Positions 2,657 through 64,000 of a DNA stretch of 64,000 nucleotides are shown in pieces (position 1 is the first letter of the stretch; every line of letters starts with the position of its first letter). The DNA comes from Halomicrobium urmianum (lineage in GTDB: Archaea > Halobacteriota > Halobacteria > Halobacteriales > Haloarculaceae). Below the pieces are notes generated by a model that was not told where the DNA came from, ran no database searches, and saw only the letters and a list, made by a program, of their open reading frames with translations. A program made the position numbers and the translations under genes. The stretch is from positions 248,001 through 312,000 of the forward strand of contig NZ_CP084090.1 in assembly GCF_020217425.1 (NCBI RefSeq), in the 5' to 3' direction.

Positions 2657-3631
2657 CTACGCCGGCACGCCTTCGGCGTCGAGCAGTTCCTTGTAGCGGT
2701 TGCGGATGGTGACCTCGGAGATGTCGGCGACGTCGCTGACCTGGCTCTGGGTGACCTTCTCGTTGGTCAGCAGCGAGGCCGCGTAGACGGCCGCCGCGGC
2801 CAGTCCGACGGGCGACTTGCCGCTGAGGACGCCGCCCTGTCGGGCCGACTCGATCAGTTCCCGGGCGCGGCGCTCGACCTCGTCGGAGAGCCCGAGGTCG
2901 CTGACGAACCGTGGGACGTAGCTCTCGGGGTCGGCCGGGGCGACCTCCAGGCTCAGTTCTCGGACGACGTAGCGATAGGTGCGAGTGAGCTCCATCTTGT
3001 CGACCCGGGAGACGCGCTCGACCTCGTCGAGCGACCGGGGCGTGTTCGCCTGACGGGCCGCGGCGTACAGCGACGCGCTGGCGACGCCCTCGATGGACCG
3101 GCCCGGCAGCAGGTCCTCCTCGAGTGCGCGGCGGTAGATGACCGACGCCGTCTCGCGGACGTTCTGCGGCAGGCCGAGCGCGGAGGCCATCCGATCGATC
3201 TCGCCCAGCGCCTGCTTGAGGTTGCGCTCCTTGGAGTTGCGCGTGCGGAACCGCTCGTTCCACGTTCGGAGGCGCTTCATCTTCGAGCGCTGCTCGCTGG
3301 ACAGCGAGTTGCCGTAGGCGTCCTTGTCCTGCCAGCCGATGTTGGTCGACAGCCCCTTGTCGTGCATCATGTTGGTCGTCGGCGCGCCGACGCGGGACTT
3401 CTGGTCGCGCTCCTTCGAGTCGAACGCGCGCCACTCGGGACCGCGGTCGATCTCGTTCTCCTCGACGACCAGCCCGCAGTCCCCGCAGATCGTCTCGCCC
3501 CGCTCCTCGTCCGAGACCAGATCGCCGCCACACTCCGGACAGGTACGCTCGGTCTCGGTGCTCTCGGTCTCCTCCTGCTGCTCCCGCTCGGTGCGGGTCC
3601 GCTCGTCGGCGCGTACGTTTGATTCACTCAT
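2657..3631 (-). CDS. tfb: transcription initiation factor TFB (copy 1)
   Basis: 324 residues. The N-terminal zinc ribbon (CPECGGDLVSDEE and CGDCGLV, about residues 31-53) is followed by the B-finger/B-reader (RAFDSKERDQKSRVGAP, about 70-86) and two cyclin-fold repeats (about 125-215 and 225-318). The second cyclin fold holds the BRE-contacting helix-turn-helix SQVSDVADISEVTIRNRY. TFB bridges TBP-DNA and RNA polymerase. A TATA box CCTTATATG (3713-3721) implies a leader of roughly 60 nt unless a nearer weak box is used. A close paralogue is at 56380-57354, with long identical blocks such as LRTWNERFRTR. Confidence 0.97.
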   Translation of the reverse strand: MSESNVRADERTRTEREQQEETESTETERTCPECGGDLVSDEERGETICGDCGLVVEENEIDRGPEWRAFDSKERDQKSRVGAPTTNMMHDKGLSTNIGWQDKDAYGNSLSSEQRSKMKRLRTWNERFRTRNSKERNLKQALGEIDRMASALGLPQNVRETASVIYRRALEEDLLPGRSIEGVASASLYAAARQANTPRSLDEVERVSRVDKMELTRTYRYVVRELSLEVAPADPESYVPRFVSDLGLSDEVERRARELIESARQGGVLSGKSPVGLAAAAVYAASLLTNEKVTQSQVSDVADISEVTIRNRYKELLDAEGVPA

Positions 3632-17848: not shown

Positions 17849-18556
17849 ATGAGCGAGAACGAGAGCGGCGACCTGCAGCGTGCGTCGACCGACGACCGCT
17901 CCGGCAGCGGTGACGGATCGACCGTCACGCGCCGGACGGCCATGCGGACGATGGCGGGCGCAGCGGTCGCGGCAGGCGCGGCGGGGGCGGTCCCCGCCGC
18001 GGCGGCCCAGAGCGGCCCGGACTACGGCGGCTGGTTCGACGGCGTCGGCAACTTCGACGGCACCGTCGACATGACGGGCGAGGACAGCGTCACGGTCACT
18101 GTGGGCGCGCAGGGCAACGGCGGCGCGTTCGCGTTCGATCCGGCCGCCGTCCGCGTCGACCCGGGAACGACCGTCACCTGGGAATGGAGCGGGGACGGCG
18201 GCAGCCACAACGTCGTCGCCGAGGACGGGTCCTTCGAGAGCGAACTGGTCGGCGACGCGGGCCACACCTTCGAGCAGGACTTCGAGGAGGAGGGGGTCTA
18301 CCGCTACGTCTGCTCGCCTCACCGGACGATGGGCATGAAGGGCGCCGTCGTCGTCGGCGGCTCGGGCGGTTCCGGCGGCGAGAGCGTCGGAAGCGCGGCC
18401 AGCGGCGAAGGGGGCGCGGGGGCCGGCGGTTCCGGTATCGACGCGACTACCGGTCTCGTCGGCGGGTCCTTCCTGCTGGCCCTTTTCTCGCCGCTGGCGT
18501 TCGCGGCGTTCCTCCGCCGCCGGCTCTCCGGGAGACGCGGTCCCCGGCCGGAGTAG
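17849..18556 (+). CDS. halocyanin-type blue copper protein, Tat-exported, C-terminally anchored
   Basis: 235 residues. A Tat-like signal (VTRRTAMRTMAGAAVAAGAA, about residues 28-47) is followed by one plastocyanin-like domain (about 60-172). The copper ligands are visible: His in GSHNVV, then CSPHRTMGM supplying Cys, His and Met. A Gly/Ser linker leads to a C-terminal membrane helix (LVGGSFLLALFSPLAFAAF) and a basic tail, so it is anchored outside the membrane as a small electron carrier. Leaderless start is supported by CCTTTTGCGG about 27 nt upstream. A nitric oxide reductase occurs at the right end of the window, but the link is only functional speculation. Confidence 0.92.
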   Translation: MSENESGDLQRASTDDRSGSGDGSTVTRRTAMRTMAGAAVAAGAAGAVPAAAAQSGPDYGGWFDGVGNFDGTVDMTGEDSVTVTVGAQGNGGAFAFDPAAVRVDPGTTVTWEWSGDGGSHNVVAEDGSFESELVGDAGHTFEQDFEEEGVYRYVCSPHRTMGMKGAVVVGGSGGSGGESVGSAASGEGGAGAGGSGIDATTGLVGGSFLLALFSPLAFAAFLRRRLSGRRGPRPE

Positions 18557-18557
18557 A

Positions 18558-18633
18558 GTAGAAACTGAACGCGATGTCACGCTCGAGGGGAACCCGAGGT
18601 GTACCTCGATGTGTGAATCGTTTCAGGTTCTAC
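18558..18633. repeat. hairpin element, copy A
   Basis: Outer arms GTAGAAACTGAA (18558-18569) and TTCAGGTTCTAC (18622-18633) pair with one mismatch. An inner stem uses TCGAGG and CCTCGA. It starts 1 nt after the halocyanin stop and ends about 55 nt before the archease start. The whole unit aligns with copy B at 60259-60342, with a T-A to C-G compensatory change in the outer stem. Confidence 0.8.
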
Positions 18634-18687
18634 GATAGCTCCGGACAGGCTTTTGGTCGCGCTGGCCCGATGGTCCGACGAGAGACC

Positions 18688-56379: not shown

Positions 56380-57354
56380 ATGACCGACACCACTATCAGA
56401 CGGTACACGAGCGAGAGCGAGCGCACCGACGAGACGGAAGACGAGCAGGAGGAGGAACTGGTCTGTCCGGAGTGTGGTGGCGACCTGGTCTCCGACGAGG
56501 AGCGCGGCGAGACGGTCTGCGAGGAGTGCGGTCTCGTCGTCGAGGAGGACGAGATCGATCCCGGGCCCGAGTGGCGTGCGTTCGACTCGAAGGAGAAAGA
56601 CGAGAAGTCCCGCGTCGGCGCGCCGACGACCAACATGATGCACGACAAGGGGCTGTCGACCAACATCGGCTGGCAGGACAAGGACGCCTACGGCAACTCG
56701 CTGTCCTCGCGCCAGCGCGAGAAGATGCAGCGCCTCCGAACGTGGAACGAGCGGTTCCGGACCCGCGACTCCAAGGAGCGTAACCTCAAGCAGGCGCTGG
56801 GCGAGATCGACCGCATGGCCTCCGCGCTCGGCCTGCCCGAGAACGTCCGCGAGACGGCGTCGGTCATCTACCGCCGCGCGCTGGACGAGGACCTGCTGCC
56901 GGGCCGGTCCATCGAGGGCGTCGCGACGGCCTCGCTGTACGCCGCGGCCCGACAGGCCGGCACGCCCCGATCGCTGGACGAGCTCACCGCCGTCTCCCGG
57001 GTCGACAAGGACGAGATCGCCCGCACCTACCGCTACGTCGTTCGCGAACTCGGCCTGGAGATCCAGCCCGCCGACCCCGAGAGCTACGTCCCGCGGTTCT
57101 CCTCCGACCTGGAGCTGTCCGACGAGGTCGAGCGCCGCGCCCGACAGCTCCTGCAGAACGCCAAGGATCAGGGCGTCCACTCCGGCAAGTCGCCCGTCGG
57201 CCTCGCCGCCGCAGCGGTGTACGCCGCCTCGCTGCTGACCAACGAGAAGGTCACCCAGAGCCAGGTCAGCGAGGTCGCCAACATCTCCGAGGTCACTATC
57301 CGCAACCGCTACCACGAGCTGCTCGAAGCCGAAGAGGACATCCAGAGCGTCTGA
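56380..57354 (+). CDS. tfb: transcription initiation factor TFB (copy 2)
   Basis: 324 residues, same length as copy 1. Zinc ribbon CPECGGDLVSDEE and CEECGLV, B-finger RAFDSKEKDEKSRVGAP, two cyclin folds, and C-terminal SQVSEVANISEVTIRNRY. It differs from copy 1 mainly at the N-terminus and in cyclin repeat 1/2 surfaces (EIARTYRYVVRELGLEIQPA against the ELTRTYR form). Paired TFBs of this sort are usual in haloarchaea and could serve different promoter sets. Confidence 0.97.
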   Translation: MTDTTIRRYTSESERTDETEDEQEEELVCPECGGDLVSDEERGETVCEECGLVVEEDEIDPGPEWRAFDSKEKDEKSRVGAPTTNMMHDKGLSTNIGWQDKDAYGNSLSSRQREKMQRLRTWNERFRTRDSKERNLKQALGEIDRMASALGLPENVRETASVIYRRALDEDLLPGRSIEGVATASLYAAARQAGTPRSLDELTAVSRVDKDEIARTYRYVVRELGLEIQPADPESYVPRFSSDLELSDEVERRARQLLQNAKDQGVHSGKSPVGLAAAAVYAASLLTNEKVTQSQVSEVANISEVTIRNRYHELLEAEEDIQSV

Positions 57355-58210: not shown

Positions 58211-59401
58211 TCACTCGCCGACCAGCGACGCGACGTACTTCGTGACGTGGTCGTCCATCCGTCGCTTGTAGCCGGCCTGCCGGGCCAGCCGGTCGAGTTC
58301 GCGGGCCGCGAGGCTCCCGTACTGGGCGGCCTTCTTGTCGCGGTCGACGACTGCGTCCGGGAGCCACTCGGCTGCCGCCCGCCGCAGGGCCCACTTGCGC
58401 TCGTCGCCGCGGACGAGCTGCGAGCCGGACAGCCCCAGCGCCGCCGCGACGACGCGGTCGGAAAGCAGCGGTGTCACCGGCTCGACCCCGGCGGCGCGCA
58501 GCGCGAGGACGTCCCGTTCGAGCTGGTCGGGCAGCCCAGTCAGCACTTCCCGGCGCGCCCCCCGGACCGTGTCCGCGTCGACCCGGGGGTCGTCGGGCGC
58601 CTTCGCTACCTTGGCGTAGCCGCCGAACAGCTCGTCGGCCCCCTGTCCGAGGACGAGCCGGTCGTGCCCGTCCGCCGCGGCGCGCTCCGCGGTCAGATAG
58701 AGGGGGAGCGCTATCTGGACGGCCATGGCGTTCGTCCGCCCGGTCGCGGCGACGATGTCGGGCACGGCCCGCTCCAGGTCGTCGTGGGTCAACTCGACGA
58801 CTGTCAGGTCTCGGCCCAGCAGGTCTGCGGCCGACCGGGCCGCCTCGACGTCGTGGCTGTCCGGGAAGCCGGCGACGTACAGCGGCGCGTCCAGGCGGGC
58901 GGCCAGCAGCGCCGAGTCGACGCCGCCGGAGAAGGCGACGGCCGTCGACGCGTCGCCGTCGTCTGCGATGGCACCCCCGTCCGCCGCGTCCCCGACGGCC
59001 GCATCGAGCGCCGCCCGGACGGCTGCGACGGCGCGCTCGTCGTCGTCGACCGGCTCCGGGTCTGGTAGCGACCAGAGCCGCTCGGTGCCGTCCGCCGTGA
59101 CGCGGTAGCCGGCGGGGACCGGCTCGGGGTCCGAGAGGTCTCTCCGGTCGTGGCTCCACGCGCCGTCGGCGGTGGGAGCGGTCGCGTCCGGCGTGTATTC
59201 GCCGGCCGCACCCGTGGTCGCGTCCGGCGTAGACTCGCCGGCCGCCCCGTGGGACGCACTTTGATCGTAGAACAGCGGCTCCCGTCCGAGGACGTCCCGG
59301 ACGAGCGCGCCGTCGAGCGGGCCGGCGAAGCCGCGCGTCCCCGGGAGCGGGTCGCCGTCGTCGACGGCCGTCCCAACGAGGTCCGGCGATGCCCCCCGCA
59401 T
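58211..59401 (-). CDS. asparagine synthase-like protein (ATP-PPase domain)
   Basis: 396 residues. Variable acidic N-terminal region (about 1-130) without an obvious glutaminase Cys2; then SGGVDSALLAARLDAPLYVA (PP-loop, about 159-178) and GQGADELFGGYAKV (about 251-264), typical of AsnB-type synthases. The N-terminal region carries a 12-residue tandem repeat (AAGESTPDATTG, AAGEYTPDATAP), encoded at 59181-59252. Without a glutaminase it may use ammonia or act on another acceptor. The start overlaps the upstream gene stop (ATGA). Confidence 0.85.
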   Translation of the reverse strand: MRGASPDLVGTAVDDGDPLPGTRGFAGPLDGALVRDVLGREPLFYDQSASHGAAGESTPDATTGAAGEYTPDATAPTADGAWSHDRRDLSDPEPVPAGYRVTADGTERLWSLPDPEPVDDDERAVAAVRAALDAAVGDAADGGAIADDGDASTAVAFSGGVDSALLAARLDAPLYVAGFPDSHDVEAARSAADLLGRDLTVVELTHDDLERAVPDIVAATGRTNAMAVQIALPLYLTAERAAADGHDRLVLGQGADELFGGYAKVAKAPDDPRVDADTVRGARREVLTGLPDQLERDVLALRAAGVEPVTPLLSDRVVAAALGLSGSQLVRGDERKWALRRAAAEWLPDAVVDRDKKAAQYGSLAARELDRLARQAGYKRRMDDHVTKYVASLVGE

Positions 59402-60087
59402 CAGTCGAGGAGGCCGTCGATGCGGTTCTTCACGCGGCGCTTGGCCCCGCCGGCGGCCTGCCGGAAGCTGATCCGCCAGGGCGTTCGCTTGCCCTCGACG
59501 GTGGTCCGACCGTCGACGATGGCACCGAGGATTCCCTCGAGGGTCCGGTCGGCGGCGTCGACGCGCGTGACCGCCTGGCCCACCATCTCGCTGACGTGCG
59601 CGTCGCTGCCGGCGGTCATGGACATGCCGCTGCGGCGGGCCAGGCGCTCGGCCTGGCGGTTCGCCCGACCGGTCAGCAGCCGGGAGTTGTACACCTCGAC
59701 GGCGTCCGCTGCGGTCAGGTCGTCCGTGGTGACGTTGGCGAGGACGCCGCTGCGCGACTCCTGGAACGGGTGGGGAACGACGGCGATGCCCCCGAGGTCG
59801 TCGATCCGGTCGAGCGTCTCCCCGAACGGCAGGCCGGAGGGGACGGCTTCCTCGACGCCGAGCGCGAGGACGTGCCCGGCGCGGCTGGTCACCTCCATCC
59901 CGGGGATGCCGACGAGCCCGTAGTCGGGGGCCAGTTCGGCGGCCCGCAGGCTGGCGTCGATCTCGTCGTGGTCGGTGACCGCCAGCGCGTCGAGCCCGAC
60001 GGCCGCCGCCTGCTCGAGCAGGAGTTCGACGGAGTCCCGGCCGTCGTAGGACAGTTCCGAGTGGGCGTGGAGCTCGACCGACAGCAC
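59401..60087 (-). CDS. PHP-domain metal-dependent phosphoesterase
   Basis: 228 residues from GTG 60087 (MLSVELHAHSELSYDGRDSV). PHP motifs: HAHSELSYDG, VTDHDEIDA, GMEVTS, PHPFQESRSG and GSDAHVSE, holding a multinuclear metal site. It is similar to the RNase/5'-3' exonuclease-like PHP proteins of archaea. TCCCTTTTGCC about 30 nt upstream supports the GTG. Coupled to the asparagine-synthase-like gene downstream. Confidence 0.9.
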   Translation of the reverse strand: MLSVELHAHSELSYDGRDSVELLLEQAAAVGLDALAVTDHDEIDASLRAAELAPDYGLVGIPGMEVTSRAGHVLALGVEEAVPSGLPFGETLDRIDDLGGIAVVPHPFQESRSGVLANVTTDDLTAADAVEVYNSRLLTGRANRQAERLARRSGMSMTAGSDAHVSEMVGQAVTRVDAADRTLEGILGAIVDGRTTVEGKRTPWRISFRQAAGGAKRRVKNRIDGLLD

Positions 60088-60258
60088 GGACCCCCGTTCG
60101 CAGTCAGATGGCAAAAGGGACTCGGTACGCGCCGAACCGGCCGAATCGGCACCGAGACGGCGAGCGGGCGTCGTCGGCGGCGTGCGAGCAGTCCCGTCTC
60201 GACGGGGTTCGTGCCGACGAAGCGAAACGAAAAAGGCAGAGAAGCGGAATCCATCCGA

Positions 60259-60342
60259 TATAGTAGAAATTGAACGCAATGACACACTCGAGGGGCGCCT
60301 TGGGTGCGCCTCGATGTGTAAATAGTTTCAATTTCTACTATA
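60259..60342. repeat. hairpin element, copy B
   Basis: Perfect 16-bp arms TATAGTAGAAATTGAA (60259-60274) and TTCAATTTCTACTATA (60327-60342), with an inner stem TCGAGG/CCTCGA plus ACACA/TGTGT. Same architecture and about 78% identical to copy A (18558-18633). It lies between the PHP gene and rpoB''; its right arm (CTACTATAG) is about 60 nt upstream of the rpoB'' ATG and could supply promoter sequence. The rest of the 60088-60402 gap shows no gene. Confidence 0.85.
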
Positions 60343-60402
60343 GCTCTCGCCGCGTGGCTGTCCGCATCGCTCGCAGACCAACCAGCGACGCCCTCGCTTC
60401 GT

Positions 60403-61986
60403 ATGAACGTGGAAGACAGACGCGACATCTCACGGGAGTACTTCACGAAGGAACGACTGGCCGAGCACCACTTCCGCTCGTTCAACGCATTTCTAGAGCG
60501 GGGGATGCAGGAGGTCGTCGACGAGAAGGAGACGATCGAGACGGACATCGGCGACAAAGAGGGACAGGAGCCCGTCTTCGTCGAACTGGGCGACGTGCGC
60601 GTGCTGACGCCGCGGGTCCGCGAGGCCGACGGCAGCGAGGAGCTGCTCTATCCCCAGGAGGCCCGCCTGCGGAACCTCACCTACGCCGCGCCCGTGTTCA
60701 TGGAGATGGCCATCGTCCGCGGCGGCGAGGAGGAGCCCGAGCAGGTAGTCGACCGCTACGAGGCCAAGGTCGGCCGGCTCCCGATCATGGTCGGGTCGGC
60801 CAACTGCAACCTCACGGGCGAGCGAGGCGCGTGGCGCGACGACGAGGAGCTGATCGACCTCGGCGAGGACCCCGCCGACCCCGGCGGCTACTTCATCGTC
60901 AACGGCTCCGAGCGGATGCTCATGACCAGCGAGGACCTCGCACCGAACAAGGTCCTCACCGAGCACGACACCAGGTACGGCGACGAGATCCAGCGGGCCA
61001 AGACCTTCTCGCAACGGCACGGCTACCGCGCGCTCGTCATGGTCGAGCGCGGCCGCGACCGCCTGCTGGAGGTCTCCTTCCCGGGCGTCTCCGGCGACGT
61101 CGACTTCGTGACGCTCGTCCGCGCCCTCGGACTCGAGTCGGACGAGGAGATCGTCCACCGGGTCAGCGACGACCCGGAGATCGTGAAGTTCATGCTGGAG
61201 AACCTGGAGGCCGCCGACGTCCAGACCACCGAGGAGGCCATGGAGAAGCTGGGCAAGCGCGTGGCCTCCGGCCAGGGCAAGAACTACCAGCTCCGCCGCG
61301 CGAACTACGTCATCGATCGGCACCTCCTGCCGCACCTCCACGAGGACGGCGTCGACGAGGAGGACGTCCGGATCAACAAGGCCTACTACCTCTGCCGGAT
61401 GGCCGAGGCCTGCTTCGAGCTCGCGCTCGGTCGCCGCGAGTCCGACGACAAGGACCACTACGCCAACAAGCGCCTGAAGATCAGCGGGGAGCTGATGAAG
61501 GACCTCTTCCGGACGGCGCTGAACAAGCTCGGCCGGGACGTCAAGTACCAGCTCGAACGCGCCAACATGCGCGACCGCGACCTCTCGGTGTCGACCGTCG
61601 TGCGGTCGGACGTGCTGACCGAGCGCCTGGAGCACCCGCTGGCGACCGGTAACTGGGTCGGCGGCCGCTCGGGCGTCTCCCAGCTCGTCGACCGGACCGA
61701 CTACATGGCCGTCCTGTCGCACCTGCGCCGGCTGCGCTCGCCGCTGTCGCGCAGCCAGCCCCACTTCGAGGCCCGCGACCTCCACGCCACCCAGTGGGGG
61801 CGCATCTGTCCCTCCGAGACGCCCGAAGGCCCCAACTGCGGCCTCGTCAAGAACTTCGCACAGGCCATCGAGATCAGCCAGGACGTCGAGGACGAGCGCG
61901 AGGTCAAGCGCACCCTCGCCGACATGGGCGTCGAAGGCATCCCGGGGATCGATGCGGCGGGGCAGGGGGCTCCCGCCGACGACTGA
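60403..61986 (+). CDS. rpoB2: RNA polymerase subunit B'' (Rpo2 N-terminal), stand-alone copy
   Basis: 527 residues covering the full archaeal B'' (lobe/protrusion part of Rpo2): SREYFTKERLAEHHFRSFNA, PLATGNWVGGRSGVSQLVDR, TQWGRICPSETPEGPNCGLV and terminal GVEGIPGID. In haloarchaea this gene normally sits in rpoH-rpoB''-rpoB'-rpoA'-rpoA''; here neither rpoH nor rpoB' is beside it. From memory of canonical sequences it has changes in usually fixed stretches and an insertion near SANCNLTGERGAWRDDEELI (about 131-150). It may be an extra divergent subunit or a relocated sole copy. Confidence 0.93.
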   Translation: MNVEDRRDISREYFTKERLAEHHFRSFNAFLERGMQEVVDEKETIETDIGDKEGQEPVFVELGDVRVLTPRVREADGSEELLYPQEARLRNLTYAAPVFMEMAIVRGGEEEPEQVVDRYEAKVGRLPIMVGSANCNLTGERGAWRDDEELIDLGEDPADPGGYFIVNGSERMLMTSEDLAPNKVLTEHDTRYGDEIQRAKTFSQRHGYRALVMVERGRDRLLEVSFPGVSGDVDFVTLVRALGLESDEEIVHRVSDDPEIVKFMLENLEAADVQTTEEAMEKLGKRVASGQGKNYQLRRANYVIDRHLLPHLHEDGVDEEDVRINKAYYLCRMAEACFELALGRRESDDKDHYANKRLKISGELMKDLFRTALNKLGRDVKYQLERANMRDRDLSVSTVVRSDVLTERLEHPLATGNWVGGRSGVSQLVDRTDYMAVLSHLRRLRSPLSRSQPHFEARDLHATQWGRICPSETPEGPNCGLVKNFAQAIEISQDVEDEREVKRTLADMGVEGIPGIDAAGQGAPADD

Positions 61987-62101: not shown

Positions 62102-62365
62102 TCAGGGTCGCGTCTCGGGGACGGTCGGCGCCTGGTCGCTGGGCGGCATCGGCTTCCGGCCGGCCGTAGTGTCCTTGCCGATCAGGCCGTTGACCATGCA
62201 GTAGCCGGTGACGGTGTTGAACGCGAAGCTGGCCGCACCCATACTCGCCAGTTGGGCGATCCTCCGGTGGTTCGATCGGTTCGCACGACGGGCCAGCGCC
62301 AAGAGGCCCAGTGCCATTCCGGCGCGCATCAGACGCTGCTTCCCGCCGACGTTCTTCGCCTTCAT
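62102..62365 (-). CDS. small membrane protein, DUF2892 (YgaP-TM) type
   Basis: 87 residues. KQRLMRAGMALGLLALARRA, then ASMGAASFAFNTVTGYCMVN with GLIGKDT, resembles the DUF2892 membrane pair in which TG[F/Y]C precedes the end of the second helix. Role unknown. TTTATAC about 60 nt upstream could be its promoter. Confidence 0.8.
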   Translation of the reverse strand: MKAKNVGGKQRLMRAGMALGLLALARRANRSNHRRIAQLASMGAASFAFNTVTGYCMVNGLIGKDTTAGRKPMPPSDQAPTVPETRP

Positions 62366-62458: not shown

Positions 62459-64000
62459 TCAGTCGTCGCTGAGGACGCCCTCGGCGACGGCCATGTCCTC
62501 GGGGCTGGGGTCGTCGGCCGTCCGGCGGAGGACGAACCGCTTGCGGACCAGATCGGCCGCGAACAGCACCGTACCGAGGATCAGCAGGGTGTCGCCGGGC
62601 ATGCGCGCCCAGAACAGGTCCTGGATGATCGGCTGGCTGTAGAACTCCAGGCTGCGCGCGAAGGCGTAGTTCTGCGTGAACGCGGCCTCCAGCTGGAGGA
62701 AGCCGACCGGGAGCAGGGAGACGAACACCATCAGCGCGAGGCCGACGTTCCACAGCCAGAACGCCCCGCGGAGCCAGGAGCCGTCCCAGCGCTCCGGATC
62801 GATCGACAGCTGGAGCATGTAGGTGACCATGCCCAGCGCCAGGAAGCCGAACGCGCCGAACATCGCGGCGTGGGCGTGGCCGACGGTGAGGTACGTGCCG
62901 TGCTCGTAGTAGTTGATCAGCGGCAGGTTGATGAAGAACCCGAGCACGCCGGCCCCGACGAAGTTCCAGACGCCGGAGGCGACGATGAACATGAACGGGA
63001 GCTTGTAGGGGAAGTCCCCGGACTCCGTCATCGCGCTGTACTGACCCAGCGCCTCGTAGAGGATGAAGACGAGGGGGATCAGCTCCAGCGTCGAGAAGAC
63101 GCTCCCGATGGGGATCCACATGTCGGGCATGCCGATCCACCAGTAGTGGTGGGAGACGCCGATGACGCCGGTGCCCATCACCAGCAGGGCCTGCAGCATG
63201 ACGGCCTTCTCGGCGCTGCGGCGCTTCAGCAGGTTCATCGACACCAGCGTCAGGCCGACGATGGCGACGATGAAGAACTCGAAGGCTCCCTCGACCCACA
63301 TGTGGACGACCCACCAGCGCCAGAACTCCGTGACGGCGAGGTTGGTCTCGGGGGTGAACAGGAAGCCGGCGGTAAAGAGCAGCGCGATCGAGCCGCCGGC
63401 GTAGAGGATCATGTGCGCGAGGCCGTAGGGCGGCTCGCGGTCCAGCAGCGGCTTCAGGCCGCGGATCGACAGCACGGCCCAGATCAGGAAGCCGGCGAGG
63501 ATGCCGAACTGCCAGACCTTGCCGACCTCGAGGTACTCCAGGCCCTCGTTGCCGACGAGCCACCACAGCGCGCCGTCGAGGTAGCCCTGCGCGCCCAGCC
63601 AGATGCCGACCATGCCGCCGACGGTGACGAAGACGAGCGCGCCCAGCAGGCCGTTGACGTAGGTCGACTGGCGCTTCGGTTCATGGCCGGTCAGCAGCGG
63701 CGGGAGGAAGAGTCCGGCGCCGAGCCACGTCGCGGCGATCCACAGGACCCCGAGGTCGATGTGCCAGGTCTTGGCGAGCGCGAAGGGAGCCCACTGGAGG
63801 ATGTTGACGCCGATCAGTTCCTCCAGCCCGAAGAAGCTCGCCCGCTCGACGTAGTAGTGGGCCAGCAGGCCGCCGAGGAGCACCTGTGCGAGGAACAGTC
63901 CGGCGGCGACGGGGATGAACCGCAACGCCGCCCGCTGGCTGGGGAAGATCTCGACGTCCTCGGGATCGGGGATGGACACGCCCTCGCCGGACGGCTCGGG
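62459..64000 (-). CDS. norB: quinol-type nitric oxide reductase large subunit, N-terminus outside window
   Basis: Open frame from the stop at 62459 to the right edge (about 513 residues seen, still in frame at 64000). NorB/NorZ signs: AKTWHIDLGVLWIAATWLGA, HMWVEGAFEFF, SHHYWWIGMPDMWIPIG, VGHAHAAMFGAFGFLALGM. There are about 12 hydrophobic helices and the heme/FeB histidines are seen. The missing N-terminal part would carry the quinol-facing domain. It reduces 2 NO to N2O in the membrane, using electrons from quinol. A GTG at 63979 is internal, not the true start. Confidence 0.92.
   Translation of the reverse strand, partial: PEPSGEGVSIPDPEDVEIFPSQRAALRFIPVAAGLFLAQVLLGGLLAHYYVERASFFGLEELIGVNILQWAPFALAKTWHIDLGVLWIAATWLGAGLFLPPLLTGHEPKRQSTYVNGLLGALVFVTVGGMVGIWLGAQGYLDGALWWLVGNEGLEYLEVGKVWQFGILAGFLIWAVLSIRGLKPLLDREPPYGLAHMILYAGGSIALLFTAGFLFTPETNLAVTEFWRWWVVHMWVEGAFEFFIVAIVGLTLVSMNLLKRRSAEKAVMLQALLVMGTGVIGVSHHYWWIGMPDMWIPIGSVFSTLELIPLVFILYEALGQYSAMTESGDFPYKLPFMFIVASGVWNFVGAGVLGFFINLPLINYYEHGTYLTVGHAHAAMFGAFGFLALGMVTYMLQLSIDPERWDGSWLRGAFWLWNVGLALMVFVSLLPVGFLQLEAAFTQNYAFARSLEFYSQPIIQDLFWARMPGDTLLILGTVLFAADLVRKRFVLRRTADDPSPEDMAVAEGVLSDD

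Follow-up and report, generated by a model that had tools for sequence, protein, structure and literature searches.

Halomicrobium urmianum carries, besides the housekeeping gene in its RNA polymerase (RNAP) operon, a second intact gene for RNAP subunit B''. This gene, which we call B''2, encodes 527 amino acids at positions 60403..61986 (+ strand) of the window, the 64,000-nucleotide stretch analyzed here (contig 1:248001-312000; the genome is haloarchaeal, 4.25 Mb in size and 99% complete), and its product is 86% identical to that of the operon copy. The best reading of the sequence is a duplicated, neofunctionalizing or conditional B'' that may be able to replace the native subunit in RNAP. 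On balance, we think it probable that B''2 is a functional paralog copied from the native rpoB'' in this lineage, most likely forming a minority second RNAP beside the single B'. This view draws on an intact gene, single-copy partners, asymmetric but constrained evolution, and the lack of a counterpart in the relatives searched; B''2 would then be expressed and incorporated, and could alter promoter use or inhibitor tolerance.

The initial annotation had described a full-length B'', and the gene bears this out. The open reading frame begins with ATG, is uninterrupted by stops, contains the Pfam domains Rpb2_1, Rpb2_2 and Rpb2_3, reaches 811 bits with the B'' equivalog NF007175, for which 355 is the cut-off, falls within the ~500-530 residues of the family, and ends before the B' domains. 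With the haloarchaeal housekeeping B'' (NF007175/PRK09606) it has in common its domains, length, N-terminus, PADD tail, and the fork motif SQLVDRTDYM.VLSHLRR..SETPEGPNCGLVKN. It differs from the housekeeping subunit in lying outside the operon, in its 86% identity, in a 5-residue insert, in changes at 23 near-invariant residues, and in protein evolution that is ~10-fold faster. Domains and score place B''2 in the B'' family; its location, outside the rpoH-rpoB' interval, marks it as a paralog and not the housekeeping ortholog. The stretch around SANCNLTGERGAWRDDEELIDLG is suited to unique peptides for this copy.

The genome search that had been proposed, for a second rpoB'' next to rpoH and rpoB', found the canonical gene at contig 1:1998133-1999692, between rpoH and B' and 1.69 Mb from B''2. 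It sits in a complete rpoH-B''-B'-A'-A'' operon of overlapping or abutting genes, in which the rpoH stop overlaps the B'' ATG, and B', A' and A'' follow. This rules out a split operon and leaves the first of the two alternatives originally offered, a paralogous B'' with the canonical operon elsewhere. B' is present once in the genome (one PF00562 match), A' and A'' are present once each, and B'' is present twice; among these four genes only B'' is duplicated, and the operon is normal. Since B', A' and A'' are single-copy, an alternative polymerase is possible, in which B''2, if expressed, would pair with B', and to that extent the earlier proposal stands in part. An assembly artifact or contamination is unlikely, as B''2 lies inside a 3.36-Mb contig, between genes that are syntenic in congeners, and has a host-like GC3.

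A second intact B'' is restricted to this genome among the 436 haloarchaeal genomes of the order that we searched with the B''2 protein. Searches of 7 genomes of the genus, 146 of the family (133 of which gave a match) and 391 of the order (from 87 genera) found none in any other species. Other genomes with two matches have a single gene in pieces or at contig ends, or a short extra fragment in a draft assembly (e.g. G106). The initial annotation had named two circumstances that together would count against a paralog, namely that this is the only rpoB'' in the genome and that close relatives have the same place as their normal locus, and neither was found. Searches of the IMG/VR, phage and plasmid collections returned no relative of B''2 with real similarity, and we reject a viral or plasmid origin on the same grounds. 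We found no report of a duplicated half of an archaeal catalytic-core subunit in the literature searched, which is weak evidence of absence.

Several irregular B'' genes came to light in these searches. One genome from another family of the order (G405) has, besides its intact B'', a 76-codon decayed fragment with a stop and 46% identity (L055:1501-1728), left over from a further B'' duplication or transfer. In G060 the B'' gene at C16:174443-176004 (L047/L053) comes out in two pieces that overlap, and it contains an in-frame TGA; this is either a sequencing error or a genuine frameshift in an essential gene. Across 390 genomes of the phylum, a search for the fork domain gave two matches only in this genome and in two others, one of which (G603) has 9% contamination. 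The other, a 2.5-Mb single-contig genome of the same phylum (G529), has two PF04565 (Rpb2 fork domain) matches and could be another case of a duplicated B or B''.

The setting of B''2 points to an insertion into an older gene order. Its divergent left neighbor is a gene for a PHP-domain (CehA/McbA-like) phosphoesterase (59401..60210, - strand) that is ancestral in the genus, and its right neighbor encodes a small YgaP-like TM membrane protein of 87 aa (62102..62365, - strand; Pfam PF11127). These are the PHP and DUF2892 flanks first noted, if, as we take it, the PF11127 gene is the one meant by the latter. Beyond lies a heme-copper oxidase subunit I-like gene (62459..63979, - strand), an ancestral nearby gene in three congeners, where it is ~3-4 kb from the PHP gene. 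In the one congener in which that interval was read through (G004), it holds three ORFs, one TraB-like, one short and one of the radical-SAM kind (names assigned by eye), and is without a B''; in another (G006), other genes precede the PHP gene. None of the sampled congeners has a B'' next to the PHP gene, and other genes are found there instead, so B''2 was either gained in this lineage or lost from all six of them, the second being the less likely. The coding sequence is the only part over which the two B'' loci resemble each other as DNA. The native rpoB'' would have been copied into the PHP-oxidase interval in this lineage only, losing its operon partners.

Two TFB paralogs occur in the window, as the initial annotation recorded, one at about 2678-3229 (- strand) and one ~3 kb from B''2 at 56380..57354 (+ strand). 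The genome has ~11 TFB genes (21 TFIIB-domain matches), and three of them are on contig 2. The TFB gene nearer to B''2 is an ancestral neighbor: it occupies the same place, at 90-93% identity, in five of the six congener regions compared, all five of which are without B''2. The two genes therefore did not arrive together, a link of B''2 to the adjacent TFB is ruled out, and the theme of promoter specialization that the TFB genes had suggested is left unsupported.

Between the PHP gene and B''2 lies an 86-bp near-palindromic dispersed repeat (CTATAGTAGAAATTGAA...TTCAATTTCTACTATAG, also written CTATAGTAGAAATTGAACGCA...GTTTCAATTTCTACTATAG) at 60257..60344, ending ~60 bp before the B''2 ATG; a further copy in the window is at ~18551-18640. 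Exact arms are found in 31 copies on three contigs of this genome, in none of six congeners, and nearly all of the 21 copies inspected are intergenic. The repeat was likewise not found in plasmid or viral collections. It is similar to MITE/SMR elements, mobile repeats without a transposase that have been described from Haloquadratum (PMC3119063). Of the AT-rich, TATA-like sequences upstream of B''2, the nearest sit inside it, which makes the promoter of B''2 uncertain; the repeat may itself supply that promoter. Production of B''2 from a promoter of its own would be conditional.

B''2 has diverged in a markedly asymmetric manner. Canonical B'' proteins within the genus are ~94-99.6% identical, and B''2 is 79-87% identical to all haloarchaeal B'' other than the native copy. 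In relative-rate tests against congeners, amino-acid changes number 61 in B''2 vs 6 in the native copy (p 1e-12), silent changes 41 vs 22 (p 0.02), and omega is about 0.29 on the B''2 branch vs about 0.07 between canonical copies, a roughly fourfold difference. The higher omega, the faster silent change and a few AGA/AGG codons are also what a weakly expressed gene in the course of being lost would show, and occurrence in one genome leaves a function without support from cross-species conservation. B''2 could accordingly be read as a redundant duplicate in early decay, under relaxed selection, unbroken so far and without a distinct role; the relic in G405 is a reminder that extra copies do arise and decay. 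We regard this as rather unlikely, given the purifying signature that persists over ~170 substitutions. B''2 has 67 changed residues, while 2000 neutral runs averaged 121-124 and never gave fewer than 103; this is half of the expected amino-acid changes, and its frame is intact with zero stops; 11% of neutral simulations run with its own silent-change spectrum were likewise stop-free. Its changes avoid near-invariant columns (defined by at least 97% invariance across the 101 canonical haloarchaeal B''), with 23/390 of these altered vs 40/130 elsewhere (p 4e-12), and they are conservative in 78% of cases vs 48% expected. The 23 altered columns, set beside 12, 7 and 4 in the next most divergent sequences, agree with the earlier remark that several usually invariant stretches look changed. 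Together these patterns argue that B''2 is still under purifying selection as a protein, and that it is selected much more loosely, or differently, than the native copy.

The origin of B''2 is recorded differently in different parts of the gene. Trees of silent positions join B''2 to the native copy with support from 96/99 to 100/99, and they do so as well when only C/G differences are coded (97/98), so GC richness in common is no explanation. The likeness at silent sites is greatest in the middle part (61105..61854, + strand; codons ~235-484, with approximate boundaries), which covers most of the lobe, the second protrusion part and the fork. With C/G differences only, silent divergence from the native gene amounts to 19/131 there and 31/100 in the ends (p 0.0035, with block limits chosen post hoc), and the middle-block tree again pairs the two copies (98/97). 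This suggests gene conversion of codons ~234-484 by the native gene. A silent-only chi-square scan for mosaicism was significant, yet control pairs were similarly heterogeneous, and the case for mosaicism therefore rests on the C/G-only contrast and the block trees. Whole-gene DNA and protein trees leave B''2 unplaced.

The ends of the protein complicate this picture. With 14 non-haloarchaeal outgroups of the phylum, the tree of residues 1-234 and 485-527 places B''2 outside 38/38 canonical haloarchaeal B'' (99/95), AU tests on the ends reject a grouping with the native copy (p 0.017) or with the genus (p 0.019), and at sites uniform in haloarchaea B''2 has the residue of the outgroup majority (e.g. 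L126, R191, L92, T186, V501). Mere acceleration simulated under LG or C20 gave the basal placement in 0/160 runs, which rules out a simple long-branch artifact under those models, though not under a site-profile null, in which an accelerated native copy took only the residues tolerated at each site and reached the same likelihood gap in 6/100 runs. On this control with site-specific constraints, convergence may account for the basal placement. These observations leave a live alternative, an older or foreign B'' that was acquired and then converted: a chimera with ends derived from some lineage beyond the haloarchaea sampled here and a middle that the native gene would have overwritten. The C/G silent distance of the ends to the native gene, which is close to the congener distance while the middle is much closer, is in keeping with such a history. 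We hold it to be possible but tentative, however, because the site-profile null can produce the same signal, residues 1-234 stand, in silent distance from the native copy, closer to the congener level than to the far level, silent sites over the whole gene favor the native gene as sister, the block limits were set after the fact, and no donor was found. A duplication in or near the genus, with later gene conversion of the middle, appears most likely from the sequence comparisons.

The distribution of changes along the protein hints at what a duplicated B'' might do. The short insertion originally reported near residues 131-150 is a stretch of five residues in the protrusion domain (E140-W144; 60820..60834, + strand) that has a counterpart in 0/101 canonical haloarchaeal B''. 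The fraction of changed positions is 14% in the N-terminal protrusion, 11% in the lobe, 7.5% in the second protrusion part, 4.6% in the fork, and 29% in the C-terminal tail. By analogy, the fork would line the active centre, as in bacterial RNAP and Pol II, and the protrusion and lobe would be turned toward promoter DNA and initiation factors, as in Pol II. In the fork (427-491), 3/65 positions have changed and active-centre residues are conserved; the best-matching archaeal B chain in the PDB scores 538 bits with the native copy and 531 bits with B''2. An AlphaFold model built from 27 close homologs had a mean pLDDT of 43.5 and was unusable. By these analogies, B''2 is more likely to differ in initiation or regulation than in catalysis.

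Change has been fastest at the C-terminal edge, the junction at which B'' gives way to B' (10/34 residues). Such change might be expected of a decoy or negative regulator that binds B' or an assembly intermediate and forms no active enzyme, a role we consider very improbable, as a decoy would have no need of the fork and catalytic-side residues that B''2 has kept. The near-native middle core instead makes it most likely that B''2 replaces B'' beside the single B'. In the duplication model that we favor, B''2, which corresponds to the N-terminal half of Rpo2, the second-largest subunit, with its protrusion, lobe and fork, evolves ~10x faster than its operon counterpart and retains the regions that bind B', template and active centre together. 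It would pair with the only B' and join the common A'/A'' platform instead of native B'', giving a minority form of polymerase with an altered protrusion, lobe and B''/B' C-terminal edge and with changed contacts to initiation factors, DNA or inhibitors.

The sole near-invariant change in the fork before the end of the domain is G436A (codon 436; 61708..61710, + strand), at a position that is Gly in 101/101 canonical sequences and corresponds to E. coli RpoB 522, a rifampicin-resistance site, by PDB alignment numbering. B''2 might on this account be a resistance or self-protection subunit, making an RNAP tolerant of an inhibitor from a competing archaeon or virus. A role in inhibitor tolerance has been proposed for the actinomycete genes rpoB(R) and rpoB2, and Nonomuraea rpoB(R) likewise combines a lobe indel with fork substitutions (PMC5431353). 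In B''2, G436A is the one candidate for a resistance-type substitution in the fork. We are doubtful of this role for B''2, since replacing Gly by Ala is a mild change and other archaea usually have Ala or Ser at 436.

B''2 is most like these actinomycete duplications (Nonomuraea gerenzanensis rpoB(R), Nocardia farcinica rpoB2; PMC5431353). Each adds to an intact housekeeping gene a second, divergent one for the same part of RNAP, with an indel in a peripheral domain and a substitution in the fork, so that two forms of RNAP are possible. B''2 falls outside that set in being archaeal, in covering the N-terminal half (B'') only with a common B', and in having no known resistance or metabolic role. 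The two rpoA genes of Francisella (PMC3294249) are also non-identical paralogs of one core RNAP subunit within a genome, but they encode the alpha subunit and occur in all sequenced members of the genus, whereas B''2 occurs in one genome. The second subunits of plant Pol IV/V (PMC7714444) likewise arose by duplication of the second-largest-subunit gene and serve a specialized polymerase; they differ in being eukaryotic and full length, and other subunits are duplicated too.

Overall, B''2 is an archaeal counterpart to the actinomycete rpoB duplications, and the organism may be able to build two versions of its core RNAP. Archaea are taken to have a single RNAP, with specificity coming from TFB/TBP paralogs. 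It is unlikely, in our estimation, that the two forms would differ by exchange of B'' only and also involve a chimeric B''2 with ends from outside the known haloarchaea and a catalytic middle re-copied from the native gene; were that so, the natural B''/B' split would mark an exchangeable module. More generally, if B''2 is used, it would offer a natural test of whether an archaeon runs two core enzymes that differ in B'' only, and would bear on the reason for the B''/B' split and on how a core subunit may diverge without lethality.
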